Part shown: positions 2,625 to 62,273 of the stretch, one piece after another
How the letters are laid out: each line of letters starts with the position of its first letter
How positions within the stretch are numbered: the first letter of the stretch is position 1
From: Chelativorans sp. YIM 93263
Lineage (GTDB): Bacteria > Pseudomonadota > Alphaproteobacteria > Rhizobiales > Rhizobiaceae
DNA: 64,000 nucleotides
Direction of reading: 5' to 3'
Assembly: GCF_028767125.1 (NCBI RefSeq)
Contig: NZ_JAKCWP010000001.1
Location: 248,001-312,000 of the forward strand
Made by a program: the position numbers and the translations under genes
Notes under the pieces: generated by a model
Databases searched by the model: none
Seen by the model: the letters and a program-made list of their open reading frames with translations, nothing else
What the model was told of the DNA's origin: nothing

Positions 2625-3626
2625 ATGGCGAGACACTCCTTCTTCTGCATAGACGGGCATACATGCGGCAATCCGGTGCGCTTGGTGGCCGGCGGCGGTC
2701 CGTTTCTCGAAGGCCGCTCAATGTTGGAGCGCCGCGCGCACTTTCAGGCGGACTACGATTGGATCCGCACCGGGCTGATGTTCGAGCCGCGCGGCCACGA
2801 CATGATGTCCGGCTCGATCCTGTATCCGCCCACGCGCGAGGATTGCGACGTGGCAGTGCTCTACATCGAGACGAGCGGCTGCCTGCCCATGTGCGGACAT
2901 GGCACGATCGGCACAGTCACCTTTGCCATCGAACACGGGCTTGTGCGGCCGAAAACGCCCGGCCTGTTGCGCCTGGACACGCCGGCGGGAATGGTCACGG
3001 CCGAATACCGGCAGCAGGGAGAGCACGTGGAGGAGGTGCGCATCACGAATGTGCCGGCTTTCCTGCACGCGACGAACCTGGAGGTGGAGTGCCCCGATCT
3101 CGGGCCGCTGAAGGTCGACGTCGCCTATGGCGGCAACTTTTACGCCATCATCGAGCCGCAGGAGCACTACCGCGACCTTGCCGACCACACGGCCTCGGAC
3201 CTGGTGCGCTGGAGCCCGGTCCTGCGCGAGCGGCTGAACGCCGCGCATGACTTCGCGCATCCGGACGCGCCCGAGATCCGCGGCCTTACGCACATTCTCT
3301 GGACAGGCGCTCCGACCATGGACGGCGCCGACGCGCGCAACGCTGTCTTCTATGGCGAAAAGGCCATCGATCGTTCGCCCTGCGGAACCGGCACTTCGGC
3401 GCGCATGGCACAACTTCACGCCCAGGGCCGTCTGACGATCGGAGATACTTTCGTCCACGAATCCATCATCGGCTCGCTCTTCAACGGACGTGTGGAGAAA
3501 GAGGCCTCCGTGGGCGGAAAACCGGCCATCGTTCCCTCAATCGCCGGTTGGGCGCGCATGACGGGCCTGAATACGATCTTTATAGACGATCGTGACCCGT
3601 TCGCCCGCGGATTCACTGTGTCCTGA
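2625..3626 (+). CDS. 4-hydroxyproline 2-epimerase (proline racemase family)
   Basis: This 333-residue protein has both catalytic cysteines of the proline racemase fold: Cys90 in LPMCGHGTIG and Cys253 in DRSPCGTGTSARMA. The Cys/Cys pair separates epimerases and racemases from trans-3-hydroxyproline dehydratases, which have Thr at the second site. With a D-hydroxyproline dehydrogenase-like gene just upstream, the likely reaction is trans-4-hydroxy-L-proline to cis-4-hydroxy-D-proline. The ATG at 2625, preceded by TAGGGAGAATGCC, is preferred: the longer frame starting at 2481 would overlap the upstream gene and lacks family similarity there. Proline racemase activity cannot be excluded from sequence. 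Confidence 0.88.
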   Translation: MARHSFFCIDGHTCGNPVRLVAGGGPFLEGRSMLERRAHFQADYDWIRTGLMFEPRGHDMMSGSILYPPTREDCDVAVLYIETSGCLPMCGHGTIGTVTFAIEHGLVRPKTPGLLRLDTPAGMVTAEYRQQGEHVEEVRITNVPAFLHATNLEVECPDLGPLKVDVAYGGNFYAIIEPQEHYRDLADHTASDLVRWSPVLRERLNAAHDFAHPDAPEIRGLTHILWTGAPTMDGADARNAVFYGEKAIDRSPCGTGTSARMAQLHAQGRLTIGDTFVHESIIGSLFNGRVEKEASVGGKPAIVPSIAGWARMTGLNTIFIDDRDPFARGFTVS

Positions 3627-3892
3627 ACCGGACCCTGCGAATCCCCGCAAACATGGCGCAAATTGTGGAGATATATGTTGTGAAAATCGCGGAGAAATGA
3701 GAAAAACCTAGCGTTGAAAGCAAGGACATTGCACAATGCCGATGATAGCTTGCATCAACGCTATTGCTCCGATATGCGAGCAAAAGGTTAAGCTGCGGAC
3801 CAAGAACAAGCAAAAGCTGCAGTCCGCAGTTAGGGGAAAACAACAACAAGGAATGCGCTCGGACAGCGACGTTCCAGGGGAGAGTAGTAAGC

Positions 3893-6279: not shown

Positions 6280-7412
6280 TGACAGACGTGGCTGAAATGG
6301 AAACACCCGGGCGTTCGGCGGCGGAGCGGCGCTGGGAAAACGACCCCGTCCTCTCGGTTGAGCATCTGACCATGCGCTTCGGCGGTCTGGTGGCCGTGGG
6401 CGACCTCTCATTCGATGTCGGCCGCGGCGATATCACCGCACTGATCGGCCCCAACGGCGCGGGCAAGACGACCGTGTTCAATTGCGTGACCGGCTTCTAC
6501 AAGCCCACCGAGGGCCGCATTGTCATGCGCCACGGCGTCGGCCGGCAGGACAATACAGTTCAGGAGGTAACCGCGAGCGGGCGGCGCTTCAAGCACGAGG
6601 AGGATCAGGGTGTCTTCCTGCTGGAGCGCATGGCCGACCACGAGATCACGCACAAAGCAAGGGTTGCGCGTACCTTCCAGAATATCCGGCTCTTCGGTGG
6701 AATGACGGTGCTGGAAAATCTCCTGGTCGCTCAGCACAATCCGCTGGTGGTCGCATCCGGTTTCTCGTTCGGAGGCATTCTCGGCCTGCCGAGTTATAGC
6801 AGGGCCGAGAAGGCAGCCATCGACAAGGCTGCGTACTGGCTGGAGCGAACCAATCTGATCGATCGGGCCGATGATCCGGCCGCCGACCTGCCGTATGGCG
6901 CGCAACGGCGGCTCGAGGTCGCGCGCGCCATGTGCACGGAACCGCGGCTTCTGTGTCTGGACGAGCCGGCAGCCGGATTGAATCCGCGCGAATCCACCGA
7001 CCTTAACGCGCTGCTCAAGTTCATTTGCGAGGAGCACGACACCTCCGTGCTCCTGATTGAGCACGACATGGGCGTGGTGATGGAGATATCCGATCATATC
7101 GTCGTTCTCGACTACGGCGTGAAGATTTCCGATGGAGATCCCGAGAACGTCAAATCCGATCCCAAGGTTATCGCCGCCTATCTAGGCGTCGAGGAGGAGG
7201 ACGAGATCGACATTCCGGAAGTGCGGGAGGATGTCGCCGAGCAGGTCGGCGAATCCACGCCGGCATCGTCTCCGAGCAAGGAGGCCAAACCCGCATCAGG
7301 CAGCAAGAGCAAGACGGCCGGTAAGACGAAGACAAATGCAAAAACTTCTGGCGCCCCCACACGAACACGCAAGACGACGAAGAGCGGCACCGGAAAGGGA
7401 GGCGCGTCATGA
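6279..7412 (+). CDS. livG: Branched-chain amino acid ABC transporter ATPase, LivG type, with a basic C-terminal tail
   Basis: This 377-residue ATPase has Walker A at GPNGAGKTT, the Liv-type stretch ARVARTFQNIRLFGGMTVLE, the degenerate signature LPYGAQRRLEVARAM, Walker B LLCLDEPAAGLNPRE, and the switch histidine in LLIEHDMGVV. The ATPase ends near residue 305. A further 70 residues are low-complexity and rich in Lys, Ser and Thr (for example SKSKTAGKTKTNAKTSG). This tail is absent from classical LivG proteins of about 255-300 residues, and its function is unknown. The gene overlaps livF by four bases (ATGA). Confidence 0.92.
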   Translation: MTDVAEMETPGRSAAERRWENDPVLSVEHLTMRFGGLVAVGDLSFDVGRGDITALIGPNGAGKTTVFNCVTGFYKPTEGRIVMRHGVGRQDNTVQEVTASGRRFKHEEDQGVFLLERMADHEITHKARVARTFQNIRLFGGMTVLENLLVAQHNPLVVASGFSFGGILGLPSYSRAEKAAIDKAAYWLERTNLIDRADDPAADLPYGAQRRLEVARAMCTEPRLLCLDEPAAGLNPRESTDLNALLKFICEEHDTSVLLIEHDMGVVMEISDHIVVLDYGVKISDGDPENVKSDPKVIAAYLGVEEEDEIDIPEVREDVAEQVGESTPASSPSKEAKPASGSKSKTAGKTKTNAKTSGAPTRTRKTTKSGTGKGGAS

Positions 7413-19813: not shown

Positions 19814-19930
19814 AAAAAAAAGAGCCGCGGTTGCGGCTCTCAGGAGTTAAACAGGGAGGCGTCAAACAGAATGGCACCAGCCATCCGGTAAGAATCCAGA
19901 CAAAACTGGATGAACACAGTAAACGCACGT
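19814..19930 (-). ncRNA. Candidate trans-acting sRNA with its own terminator
   Basis: A strong intrinsic terminator is read leftwards: stem GAGCCGC/GCGGCTC (19822-19839) with an AACC loop, then eight U (19814-19821). No minus-strand gene ends here; the next minus-strand gene to the right ends at 20811, beyond a plus-strand gene. Upstream of the terminator are a 5-bp hairpin (19871-19884), a 6-bp hairpin (19894-19911), and an unpaired stretch with CCUCCC and CUCCU that could pair with ribosome-binding sites. The 5' end is a guess, and I cannot assign a family. The alternative is a leader peptide or a remnant. Confidence 0.45.
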
Positions 19931-20078
19931 AAAGCTTAACAGCTGGTTAACAGAATCGTCTGGCTTCGATTAATTTTGGCGCAGACGCGATCAACAGCCG
20001 CTTTTTGCACATCGATGGAACATTGCGCATGCGACGACGCTTTGCGGGGAATCGCGGATTCATGTGCGAGAGGAAAAA

Positions 20079-35685: not shown

Positions 35686-36729
35686 ATGATGAAGCTCAGG
35701 AACGCCTTGTATCTTGCAGCGGCCACGACCGCGGTGAGTGCTGTGACTCTGGCCACGATCCAGCCAGCCGACGCGCAGCGTCAATCCATGCGCTGGAATA
35801 CTTCAGACGTCGGCTCCTATGGCTACGCGGTCGCATCGAGCATGGTCGATCTGCTCGACCAGGCGCTTGGTGACGAGTACACCGTTACGGTTCACCCGTA
35901 CCCGTCCACCACCGCAGCAAAAATCGCGACCATGGATGGTGATGGCGAGATCTCCTACACGGCCGATGTCGGAATGCGGCAGCTCTACGATCGTTCGGGC
36001 CCTTTCGAGGGTTACGAGCCGACAACCGGAGAGTTGGTACACACATTCTACGCATATCCGATGGAGACTTTTCTGGTCGTGTCCTCGGATAGAGCCGACG
36101 AGTTCGATTCGTGGTCGGACTTTGCGGGCGAGCCGGTTTTCTATACGCCAGCCGGCTTCATGAACTGGCTCAACATGGGGCGCATCTTCAACGCGCTCGA
36201 ACTTGACCAGAACCATGTCGAGATCGACAGCGCCACTACGGCCGACGCGCTCGAGGCTGGCTCCATCGTCGGTGCCGCTGCCTATACGACCGCCGGCGCA
36301 TCGCTACCCACCTATTGGCGCGAGGCGGAGCTCAGGGCGGACGTCACAGCGGTCAATCCGACGGATGAGGAAATCGAGCGGATGAGGGCTGCCGGGCTTT
36401 CAGTGGTGGAGATCAATCCGTCGACTGCCTTCAGCCAGGATCTCGGCGTCGATACCGTTTATGCCGTGCCGATCTTCTTCGGCTACAATGTGCGCGCCGA
36501 TATGGATGAGGAAATCGTCTACGATATGCTGACGGTATTCCACGACAACATAGACGCGCTGGTTGAAGGAGATCCGGGGTTCCGGCCGCTGGCAGAGGAT
36601 TTTGTGGGTACGCAGGCAGCAGGTGTCGCGGGCAATCCAGACATACCCGTTCATCCTGGCCTGGCCCGTTTCCTCCAGGAACATGACGCCTGGGACGATA
36701 GCTGGACGATCGCCGACGACCAGAGCTGA
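35686..36729 (+). CDS. TAXI-family TRAP transporter solute-binding protein
   Basis: This 347-residue periplasmic protein has a signal peptide (about 1-30, LAAATTAVSAVTLATIQPADA). The mature protein begins MRWNTSDVGSYGYAVASSMV and continues with HPYPSTTAAKIATMDGDGEI, the TAXI pattern at the N-lobe. TAXI proteins are the TRAP binding proteins that pair with fused permeases, and the next gene encodes one. Their ligands are mostly organic acids; the ligand here is unknown. A strong ribosome site (GAGGAGGAGGAAAA) precedes the ATG. The 149-bp leader separates it from the gntR gene. Confidence 0.9.
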   Translation: MMKLRNALYLAAATTAVSAVTLATIQPADAQRQSMRWNTSDVGSYGYAVASSMVDLLDQALGDEYTVTVHPYPSTTAAKIATMDGDGEISYTADVGMRQLYDRSGPFEGYEPTTGELVHTFYAYPMETFLVVSSDRADEFDSWSDFAGEPVFYTPAGFMNWLNMGRIFNALELDQNHVEIDSATTADALEAGSIVGAAAYTTAGASLPTYWREAELRADVTAVNPTDEEIERMRAAGLSVVEINPSTAFSQDLGVDTVYAVPIFFGYNVRADMDEEIVYDMLTVFHDNIDALVEGDPGFRPLAEDFVGTQAAGVAGNPDIPVHPGLARFLQEHDAWDDSWTIADDQS

Positions 36730-59934: not shown

Positions 59935-60582
59935 TTATGCGCGGGGCGCGGTAAGCTCCGTGGCGGCGGTGGCGATCTCGCCCGTTTCCATCAATTGCTT
60001 GAAGCGGCGTAGCTCGCGGCGAACCTGGATCTGCGGTTCGCGCTGCATGACCTTCGCCGCCGCACGTCCGACCGCGCCTGCCGGCGGTTCGTAGGCGATG
60101 GTCGCCTCGACCTGCGTGCCGCGCCCGCCCGGAGCATCGCGGAAGAGGACACGGCCGCTGTTGCTCACTTCCGAATCCGCATCCGTTTCCCATGCAATCA
60201 ACTCGTTCTCGCGCTCCTCGGTAATCTTCGTCTCGAACGTGACGCTGCTGCCGGCCGGCGCTTCGATGACCCAGCGCGAACGCATCCGGTCGATCGGCGT
60301 GACCGAGCGAACATTCTCCATGAATTCGGGAAACCGGGCAAAATCGCGCCAGCGCGCATAGACTTCCTCTCGCGGGCGATTGATCGTGACCGTGCGGCCG
60401 ACCAACGCGGCTACCGCTCCGGTGCGGCGCCACAGGCGCCGTGGTGAATCCTCGGGCTGCACGATTGTGCGTTTGCGCATGCCCTTGCGCGCGACCGCCA
60501 AGATCGCCACACCCGCCGCGGTACCGAGGACGACGGCGGCAATGGCGCGTCCGTTTCTATATTCGTGATGTCGGTGATGCAT
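59935..60582 (-). CDS. SRPBCC-family protein with an N-terminal membrane segment
   Basis: This 215-residue protein has a His-rich start (MHHRHHEYRNGR), then one membrane segment (about 13-31, AIAAVVLGTAAGVAILAVA), a basic linker, and an SRPBCC/polyketide-cyclase domain (about 60-195: VTINRPREEVYARWRDFARF, FPEFMENVRSVTPIDR, RSRWVIEAPAGSSVTFETKI). SRPBCC domains bind hydrophobic ligands or aid lipid transfer. I chose the ATG at 60582, which has GGAG just upstream; ATG at 60594 is possible. It heads a two-gene unit with the alcohol dehydrogenase. Confidence 0.83.
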   Translation of the reverse strand: MHHRHHEYRNGRAIAAVVLGTAAGVAILAVARKGMRKRTIVQPEDSPRRLWRRTGAVAALVGRTVTINRPREEVYARWRDFARFPEFMENVRSVTPIDRMRSRWVIEAPAGSSVTFETKITEERENELIAWETDADSEVSNSGRVLFRDAPGGRGTQVEATIAYEPPAGAVGRAAAKVMQREPQIQVRRELRRFKQLMETGEIATAATELTAPRA

Positions 60583-60674
60583 GAAACACTCCATCGCGGT
60601 GGGACCCGCGTCTTGGGTGCACGAACCATTTGCCGGCGAGGATTGTTCCGCGCTGCCGAAAGCGTTTGAACCAT

Positions 60675-60793
60675 AAAAAACGCCCGCCGGGGGAGGAGGT
60701 CCGGCGGGTGCTTCTGAATACGACCAGCACTAGGGAGGAGAACTGCTGGCCGGCTCGGCGAGCCTGGGAGGAGGAAGGCCGCGCCGAGAACTT
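60675..60793 (-). ncRNA. Alpha-r14 (suhB-type) sRNA
   Basis: An RNA of about 119 nt read leftwards. It has three hairpins: CTCGGCG/CGCCGAG (60754-60788), CCAGCA/TGCTGG (60724-60749), and a terminator with stem CCCGCCGG/CCGGCGGG (60683-60708) followed by U (60675-60680). Each loop carries a CCUCCUCCC or CUCCUCCC anti-Shine-Dalgarno box (plus-strand GGGAGGAG copies at 60691, 60733 and 60766). This triple-loop form is the hallmark of the alpha-r14 family of alphaproteobacterial sRNAs. A promoter is visible: TTTAAC (60828-60823), 17-bp spacing, TATGTA (60805-60800). It would block translation of mRNAs with GGAGG-type sites. The family match is by structure and motif. Confidence 0.87.
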
Positions 60794-60944
60794 GGCCGCT
60801 ACATAAGGCGGTGGCCGGTCCGGTTAAAGTGCAATCACCGCATATCTGGTTTGAAAATCTGCGGCATTCGCGCGCGGCCTTTGACAAACCGGCTACCGGG
60901 AATAGAACGGGCTGTAACACATTGGCCCGCACCGGGAGAAAATC

Positions 60945-62273
60945 ATGACCACGAATGTAGCGCCCGTCGGACTGGCACGCGACCTGGACGAACGCGCCAG
61001 GTCGGGAAAGCCGGTGCGGATCGGTCTTGTAGGCGCGGGCGAAATGGGGACCGACATCGTCGCTCGGGTTGCGCATATGTCCGGAATCGAAGTCGGTGCC
61101 ATTGCCGAGCACAAGGTCGAGGCGGCCATGAAAGCTGTCAAAATCGCCTATGGCGAGGACGGCCGCGCCCGCTGCGTCGACAGCGGATTGGCAATGACGG
61201 CAGCCATGGAAAGCGGCAGGATCGCTGTTGCCGAGAGCGCGGCAATGCTCGTCGAGAGCGAACTGATCGACGTGGTGGTCGACGCCACGGGCGTGCCCTC
61301 TGTCGGCGCCGAGATCGGCTTGTCGGCAATGCAGCACGGCAAGCATCTCGTCATGATGAACGTCGAGGCCGACGTGACTATCGGCGCGTATCTGAAGAGC
61401 GAGGCGGACCGCCTGGGCGTTACCTATTCGCTGGGAGCTGGCGACGAGCCTTCAGCCTGCATGGAACTGATCGAGTTCGTCTCCGCCATGGGCCATCCGA
61501 TCGTGGCCGCGGGCAAAGGCAAGAACAATCCGCTCAACATCGACGCTGTGCCCGACGATTACGCCGAAGAGGCAAAGCGTCGGAACATGAACAAGCGTAT
61601 GCTGGTCGAGTTCGTCGACGGCTCCAAGACCATGGTCGAGATGGCCGCCATCGCCAACGCGACCGGCCTTGTGCCCGACAGGCCGGGCATGCACGGCCCT
61701 TCTTCAACGCTCGACCAGCTTTCCTCCACGCTGATACCTCGGGAGGATGGCGGTGTGCTCTCACGCGCCGGCGTGGTGGACTATTCCGTCGGTAAGGGCG
61801 TGGCCCCCGGCGTCTTCGTCATCGCCGAGATGGGTCATCCGCGCATCCGCGAGCGGATGGAGGACCTCAAGATGGGCACCGGGCCCTATTTCACATTTCA
61901 CAGGCCCTATCACCTCACCTCGCTGGAAGTGCCGCTGACTTGCGCGCGCGTCGTACTTTACGGCAAGGCGGACATGGTCCCGCTCAAAACACCGGTCGCC
62001 GAGGTCTGCGCCGTGGCAAAGAAGGATCTCTCGCCGGGTGACCGCCTCGATGCCATCGGTGAGTACACCTACCGTGCCTGGATTATGGCGGTAGGCGACG
62101 CACGCGCGGAAAAGGCCATACCTTGCGGGCTTCTCGAGCGCGGAACGGTATTGCAGCCGATCCGCAGGGGCGACCTGATCACCTACAATAACGCCGCGCC
62201 ACCAAAGGGCTCAAAAATCGCGGCGTTGCGGGCGCTGCAGGATGAACGCCTCTACAAGGAAAGTCGCAACTAA
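60945..62273 (+). CDS. COG4091 oxidoreductase with SAF domain, related to DXR-like enzyme (DRL)
   Basis: This 442-residue NAD(P)-dependent protein has an N-terminal Rossmann fold (GLVGAGEMGTDIVARVAHMS, about 27-46), a middle domain (VVDATGVPSVGAEIGLSAMQ, about 110-130; GDEPSACMELIEFV, about 166-179), and a C-terminal SAF-like domain (about 350-440, ending ITYNNAAPPKGS). This is the COG4091 'predicted homoserine dehydrogenase' family. The Brucella DRL enzyme of this family makes MEP in place of DXR. Paralogs with other roles also exist, so function is open. It is a single gene with a GGGAGAAAATC ribosome site, 152 bp from the start of the sRNA and in the opposite direction. Confidence 0.8.
   Translation: MTTNVAPVGLARDLDERARSGKPVRIGLVGAGEMGTDIVARVAHMSGIEVGAIAEHKVEAAMKAVKIAYGEDGRARCVDSGLAMTAAMESGRIAVAESAAMLVESELIDVVVDATGVPSVGAEIGLSAMQHGKHLVMMNVEADVTIGAYLKSEADRLGVTYSLGAGDEPSACMELIEFVSAMGHPIVAAGKGKNNPLNIDAVPDDYAEEAKRRNMNKRMLVEFVDGSKTMVEMAAIANATGLVPDRPGMHGPSSTLDQLSSTLIPREDGGVLSRAGVVDYSVGKGVAPGVFVIAEMGHPRIRERMEDLKMGTGPYFTFHRPYHLTSLEVPLTCARVVLYGKADMVPLKTPVAEVCAVAKKDLSPGDRLDAIGEYTYRAWIMAVGDARAEKAIPCGLLERGTVLQPIRRGDLITYNNAAPPKGSKIAALRALQDERLYKESRN

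Follow-up and report, generated by a model that had tools for sequence, protein, structure and literature searches.

The window (the whole 64,000-nucleotide stretch of DNA that was analysed) carries on its minus strand, at positions 60793-60675, a small RNA (sRNA) gene whose assignment to the alpha-r14 family was confirmed at the level of sequence. The predicted transcript is 119 nt long, its limits being set by the Rfam ar14 (alpha-r14/NfeR1-family) match, by the distance from the -10 element to the start and by a U run taken as its end. Though well preserved, this member of a known family is an ordinary one, and it very probably acts as a free-standing, trans-acting sRNA that silences transport and catabolism mRNAs by means of anti-Shine-Dalgarno (aSD) loops. 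An earlier note on this DNA had proposed an alpha-r14-type RNA at this place. Covariance model, loops and structure all agree with that claim, and the interpretation given there is supported in substance.

Family assignment and predicted structure

Members of the alpha-r14 family are described as having three hairpins, CCUCCUCCC in every loop and stems of variable sequence; the member from S. meliloti is NfeR1 (PMC10746234, PMC7143759). SmelA075 and SmelA099 are related RNAs with the same loops (PMC3927594). The earlier note had recommended a covariance-model search with an "alpha-r14/suhB" model. In this search, Rfam ar14 (RF02344) covered 60792-60675 with 80.6 bits against a cut-off of 58.8 (E 6.3e-13), and the match was full-length, spanning model positions 1-123 of 123. 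At E up to 1, nothing on 60400-61000 matched the suhB model (RF00519), and suhB membership of the window sRNA was dropped for that reason; the ar14 part of the double label is thus retained, while its suhB part falls away as a mixture of two families. Four other models matched the locus at E up to 1, all below their cut-offs, namely ar7 (26.7 bits), CcsR1 (25.0 bits), STnc310 (23.9 bits) and anti-hemB (20.3 bits). Membership of the window copy in the DUF1127-linked cuckoo family (CcsR, RF02791) was also rejected, since the score of 25.0 bits fell short of the cut-off of 65.3 and the upstream gene is a divergent DRL_cat gene.

The predicted fold contains the three minus-strand hairpins with aSD loops that had been read from the letters. 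Hairpin 1 (60754-60788) exposes the loop UCCUCCUCCC at 60775-60766, hairpin 2 (60721-60752) the loop UCUCCUCCCU at 60741-60732, and hairpin 3 (stem-loop 60715-60676) the loop ACCUCCUCCC at 60700-60691; all three are placed by the fold and by covariation. Loop 2 carries CUCCUCCC only, as against the CCUCCUCCC-type aSD loop. The U run that follows the third stem ends at 60675, and together with hairpin 3 it would form the terminator (60675-60715). The proposal that the RNA ends in a terminator therefore holds for the third hairpin and its U run, but the element was not called by a generic consensus scan, which returned 0 promoters and 0 terminators in all and whose loop limit of 8 rules out the 10-nt loop of hairpin 3.

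The fold has an MFE of -57.2 kcal/mol (z -3.44), which 0 of 200 dinucleotide shuffles equalled, and every TCCTCC site in the window RNA has a predicted unpaired probability of 1.0. Moreover, CTCCTCCC occurs three times in the 64-kb window, where 2.49 occurrences would be expected anywhere, and all three are in the sRNA stretch. Because they sit within 83 nt on one strand, this clustering is not due to chance.

Copies in the genome, the genus and the order

The genome to which the window belongs contains eight ar14 matches at E up to 1, four of them over the cut-off and six with E below 1e-7. The matches with the lowest scores (27.3 and 25.9 bits) are doubtful, since 3 of 14 control genomes likewise match ar14 at E up to 1, always below the cut-off, and since neither sequence folds into three aSD hairpins. 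At E up to 0.001, ar14 was found in 45 of 61 genomes. Within the window's family, where the genome of the window is counted too, 36 of 37 genomes have it, and elsewhere in the order 9 of 24 do. A plasmid search with 60595-60944 returned a single partial match, covering 31% of the query at 74.6%, from Shinella.

The best-scoring copy of the genome, C12 (99.2 bits), lies directly 3' of a 46-aa DUF1127 gene (PF06568, E 2.7e-17), with the gene at 1354-1494 and the ar14 copy at 1501-1623 of locus L001. This is a cuckoo/CIN1-type arrangement; a DUF1127 gene followed by sRNA is known from R. sphaeroides CcsR, where it is labelled CIN1 (PMC10253847). The Pfam check of the DUF1127 linkage covered L001, the other loci being read by eye. 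The two C21 copies, C23 and C12b are, by eye, mutually alike and unlike the window copy. C12b (51.2 bits) lacks a fold with three aSD hairpins, and the first box of the C21 and C23 copies is partly paired, with an unpaired probability of 0.57 to 0.72.

Close-set ar14 copies were seen in two relatives. Genome G009 has two about 3 kb apart on C16 (L139, around 3584-3667 and 6841-6922), and genome G013 has three across about 0.6 kb on C1 (L141, 5916-6513), which suggests local duplication.

Copies that share with the window copy the start AAGT[TC]CTCG (GAGTT in one of them) and a similar promoter are called window-type here. Among the fetched loci, to which this classing applies, 14 such copies were counted in 13 of the 16 genus genomes: the window copy, six relatives found by synteny (five with COG4091 adjoining) and seven picked by eye. 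The copies of all six synteny relatives score over the ar14 cut-off.

Eleven window-type copies, including that of the window, were aligned for covariation. The three-helix structure is paired in 97.4% of the cells, and compensatory changes affect 10 of 35 pairs, with 20 cells altered on both sides, although the structure was drawn from the consensus of the same alignment and is somewhat favoured by it. Controls in which the structure was slid along the alignment gave only 0 to 3 pairs with double changes. On four of five measures, 0 of 500 shuffles scored as high; the fifth, further pair types, showed no excess (25 against 24.5 in the shuffles, 254 of 500). As judged from this alignment, the stems are maintained by structure while their sequence varies.

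Core promoter and upstream region

Upstream of the sRNA, on the minus strand, the elements TTTAAC (-35, 60828-60823) and TATGTA (-10, 60805-60800) were found 17 bp apart, in agreement with the earlier note. The first aligns with TTTAAA or TTCAAA in the 13 further window-type copies, and the second reads TATGTA or TATCTA at the same spacing of 17 in all 14. The start motif lies six bases past the -10 element in 13 of these 14 copies, the fourteenth being one letter off; such promoter counts are partly built in, as some copies were picked by start motif and promoter features. This distance places the predicted +1 at 60793 and gives a length of 119 nt, so that both the start and the length of about 119 nt proposed from the letters match the comparative data on window-type copies. 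Measured against the E. coli consensus, the window promoter is weak, with 3 of 6 letters per hexamer. Its description as a clear promoter is hence borne out by conservation among relatives, but not by the E. coli consensus or the generic scan.

Further upstream, 12 of the 14 window-type copies carry a TGCA-N9-TGC dyad that starts 25-26 nt before the -35 motif. Among the 14 copies compared, it is missing in the window copy and in G006; in the window, its place at 60839-60857 (minus strand) is unmatched. Of the 14 copies, 9 have an upstream box that agrees with TGC-N11-GCA and 10 have one that agrees with T-N11-A; the former word arises in 1.3% of mononucleotide-shuffled 60-nt stretches. For PnfeR1, TGC-N11-GCA is given as the NtrC pattern and T-N11-A as that of a LysR-type regulator (PMC10746234); since the box fits both types, no single regulator can be named. 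In some species the box stands between the sRNA and the divergent DXR-II-like gene, and it could serve a regulator common to both.

In the window, a putative LsrB motif TGCA-N6-GCAT (TGCAATCACCGCAT, 60830-60843, plus strand) abuts the -35 element on the opposite strand. The published motif is located near -72 to -57 in S. meliloti (PMC10746234). The match at 60830-60843 is the sole one in the window, away from the published place, and 2.68 would be expected per 64 kb by chance; for an 80-nt stretch the chance is about 0.003, in a test that was chosen post hoc. None of the other 13 window-type copies has the motif. Its presence is a matter of regulation and plays no part in how Rfam defines the family. 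We offer only tentatively the idea that the window-type copies are a genus-level alpha-r14 branch with its own TGCA-N9-TGC box, and that the window copy, having lost this box and bearing an LsrB-type motif against its -35 element, might be a case in which the control of an sRNA that is otherwise intact has been rewired naturally.

The absence of the box from the window copy and from G006 would also fit a silent or nearly silent paralogue, in which the RNA gene is intact, the activator box has decayed, and the copies C12, C21 and C23 are active instead. The presence of more ar14 copies in the genome points the same way, as does the report that, of six alpha-r14 copies in the S. meliloti genome, Northern blot reliably detects one (PMC7143759). 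This explanation is nevertheless unlikely, because the body of the RNA, the spacing of -35 and -10, the start motif and the terminator are all kept in the window copy, its copy family shows compensatory stem changes, and the putative LsrB motif at the -35 element may mean that another activator site has replaced the box.

Proposed mechanism and candidate targets

As a free-standing, trans-acting alpha-r14 sRNA, the window RNA would have a sigma-70-type promoter of its own (TTTAAC-N17-TATGTA), from which transcription would begin at 60793 and proceed to the U run of the third hairpin. Its three redundant loops would each offer an unpaired pyrimidine stretch with a UCCUCC core, pair with GGGAGGAG-like Shine-Dalgarno regions and thereby block ribosome entry, the mRNAs hit being mainly those of solute transport and catabolism. 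By covering ribosome sites in this way, the sRNA probably silences nutrient-uptake and metabolic genes. The model combines family membership, a structure with covariation, a conserved core promoter and predicted-open loops, all from the present analysis, with transcription, pairing, silencing and target class as they would be expected by analogy with the studied family. In S. meliloti, NfeR1 silences transporter mRNAs and ntrB through aSD loops that are redundant (PMC10746234, PMC7143759).

In the genome, 34 occurrences of the pattern GGGAGGAG-N4-9-ATG compare with 6 of the reversed-pattern control; any Shine-Dalgarno-like word would be in excess in this way. The count indicates that matching ribosome sites exist and is not proof that they are targets. 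The target list consists of the 30 of 34 matches for which loci were given, and it is partly a product of chance, since a frame of at least 75 aa begins at 20 of these 30 loci. Candidate targets include two TRAP DctM permeases, malate synthase G, SorT sulfite dehydrogenase, 3-hydroxyisobutyrate dehydrogenase, S-methyl-5-thioribose kinase and a family-5 solute-binding protein; three of the 20 candidate frames had no NCBIfam match.

Among 46 crude window genes, a TRAP-TAXI-like solute-binding protein gene at 35686-36726 (plus strand), which has the ribosome site GGAGGAGG, gives the strongest predicted duplex, formed at its start (-18.5 kcal/mol). The product of this gene matches the Pfam model NMT1_3 over its cut-off and the TAXI model under its cut-off. 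Duplexes with the neighbours of the sRNA are middling (DRL -9.9, ADH -10.4 kcal/mol). For ntrB, a target of S. meliloti NfeR1 that was assigned here by its place before a TIGR01818 ntrC match and not by a model of its own, the duplex at the start reaches -6.9 kcal/mol, near the median of -6.2 for the 46 genes. A role of ntrB as a conserved target of the window sRNA is thus unsupported in this genome.

The loops of the window RNA resemble the anti-Shine-Dalgarno end of 16S rRNA. With aSD-like loops in triplicate and many strong Shine-Dalgarno sequences that could pair with them, the RNA might be imagined to work as a general decoy, occupying free ribosome sites or else an RNA-binding protein instead of silencing specific mRNAs. 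We consider this improbable, given that repression of an ntrB reporter in S. meliloti was lost on mutating the three loops (PMC10746234).

Genomic neighbourhood

The divergent COG4091 gene (60945-62273, plus strand) was identified by PF21135 (DRL_cat, E 1.2e-68) and by synteny, and it also has a homoserine-dehydrogenase-type NAD domain. It is related to DXR-II by sequence and encodes a putative oxidoreductase, either DXR-II proper or DXR-II-like; among such DRL proteins, one clade only is described as DXR-II (PMC3847144). DXR-II is an alternative enzyme of isoprenoid synthesis, and it is a relative of its gene that adjoins the sRNA. The sRNA and the COG4091 gene are divergent and about 148-212 nt apart in 6 of the 16 genus genomes, and in G015 an AraC-family gene is at the side of the sRNA, with the COG4091 gene elsewhere.

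When the best 80 of 577 confirmed COG4091 matches were considered, the highest named ones were from Nitratireductor (78-81%) and from Mesorhizobium amorphae and Chelativorans (80%). A CTCCTCCC pair within 110 nt was present at 1 of these 80 named loci (L082), which has no ar14 match over the cut-off, and a wide conservation of the COG4091-sRNA pair was accordingly discarded. Because contig ends cut several loci, the word search was strict and the window's genus is not necessarily among them, this result shows merely that the pairing is not widespread.

On the other side, the sRNA had been placed next to an SRPBCC/alcohol dehydrogenase unit. The position between this unit and the COG4091 gene is correct for the window, but the unit is not tied to the sRNA, being distant in relatives. 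SRPBCC was found in 8 of 16 genus genomes. In the window it is separated from the sRNA by 80 nt; in five relatives it lies downstream at about 3 to 5.6 kb, and the distance is 1.1 kb in G015 and about 64 kb in G006. By eye, the gap in relatives holds glycosyl-hydrolase-like and dehydrogenase-like genes, which the window genome has apparently lost. The RNA might be read as a 5' leader or an attenuator for the SRPBCC-ADH unit, which does begin a short distance downstream on the same strand in the window. This notion is very hard to sustain and was dropped on the evidence from relatives: the sRNA is kept there with other genes downstream, SRPBCC lying at the distances given above, and the fetched loci of the window-type copies of G001, G007, G009 and G013 have no SRPBCC match. 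A terminator-like hairpin with a U run also separates the sRNA from SRPBCC.

Elsewhere, the window contains a match to a second known sRNA family, BjrC1505 (RF02356), at 19815-19956 on the minus strand (65.7 bits, cut-off 50).

Relation to known systems and significance

S. meliloti NfeR1 (Smr14C2, SmelC397; RF02344) resembles the window sRNA in its three aSD-loop hairpins with variable stems, its sigma-70-type promoter with N17 spacing and its multiple copies per genome. The promoter letters differ, however, the window reading CTTTAAC-N17-TATGTA and the published S. meliloti NfeR1 sequence CTTAGAC-N17-CTATAT. Most genus copies also have TGCA-N9-TGC where TGCA-N6-GCAT is published for S. meliloti, the latter being found in the window on the other strand at the -35 element.

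The CCUCCUCCC loops are common to the window sRNA and the cuckoo RNAs CcsR1-4 (RF02791), which go with the DUF1127 protein CcaF1. In contrast to these RNAs, the window copy comes with a promoter-like element and a terminator of its own and has DRL_cat instead of DUF1127 upstream, whereas C12 in the same genome does follow a DUF1127 gene. AbcR (alpha-r15) and the suhB/MmgR-like RNAs (RF00519) share CU-rich aSD motifs with the window sRNA, yet neither family was among the covariance-model matches at the sRNA locus. AbcR, which is described as silencing transporter mRNAs, has two aSD motifs against three in the window sRNA (PMC7143759).

Taken together, the comparative start, the covariation, the copy class, the altered upstream region and the finding that suhB is not involved were added to the first reading of this DNA. 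Knowledge of the alpha-r14 family itself is unchanged by these results. They add a well-supported member, with start and promoter comparatively fixed, to a family known chiefly from work in S. meliloti, distinguish the window copy from the one that is linked to DUF1127 in this genome, and put a natural promoter variant on offer.
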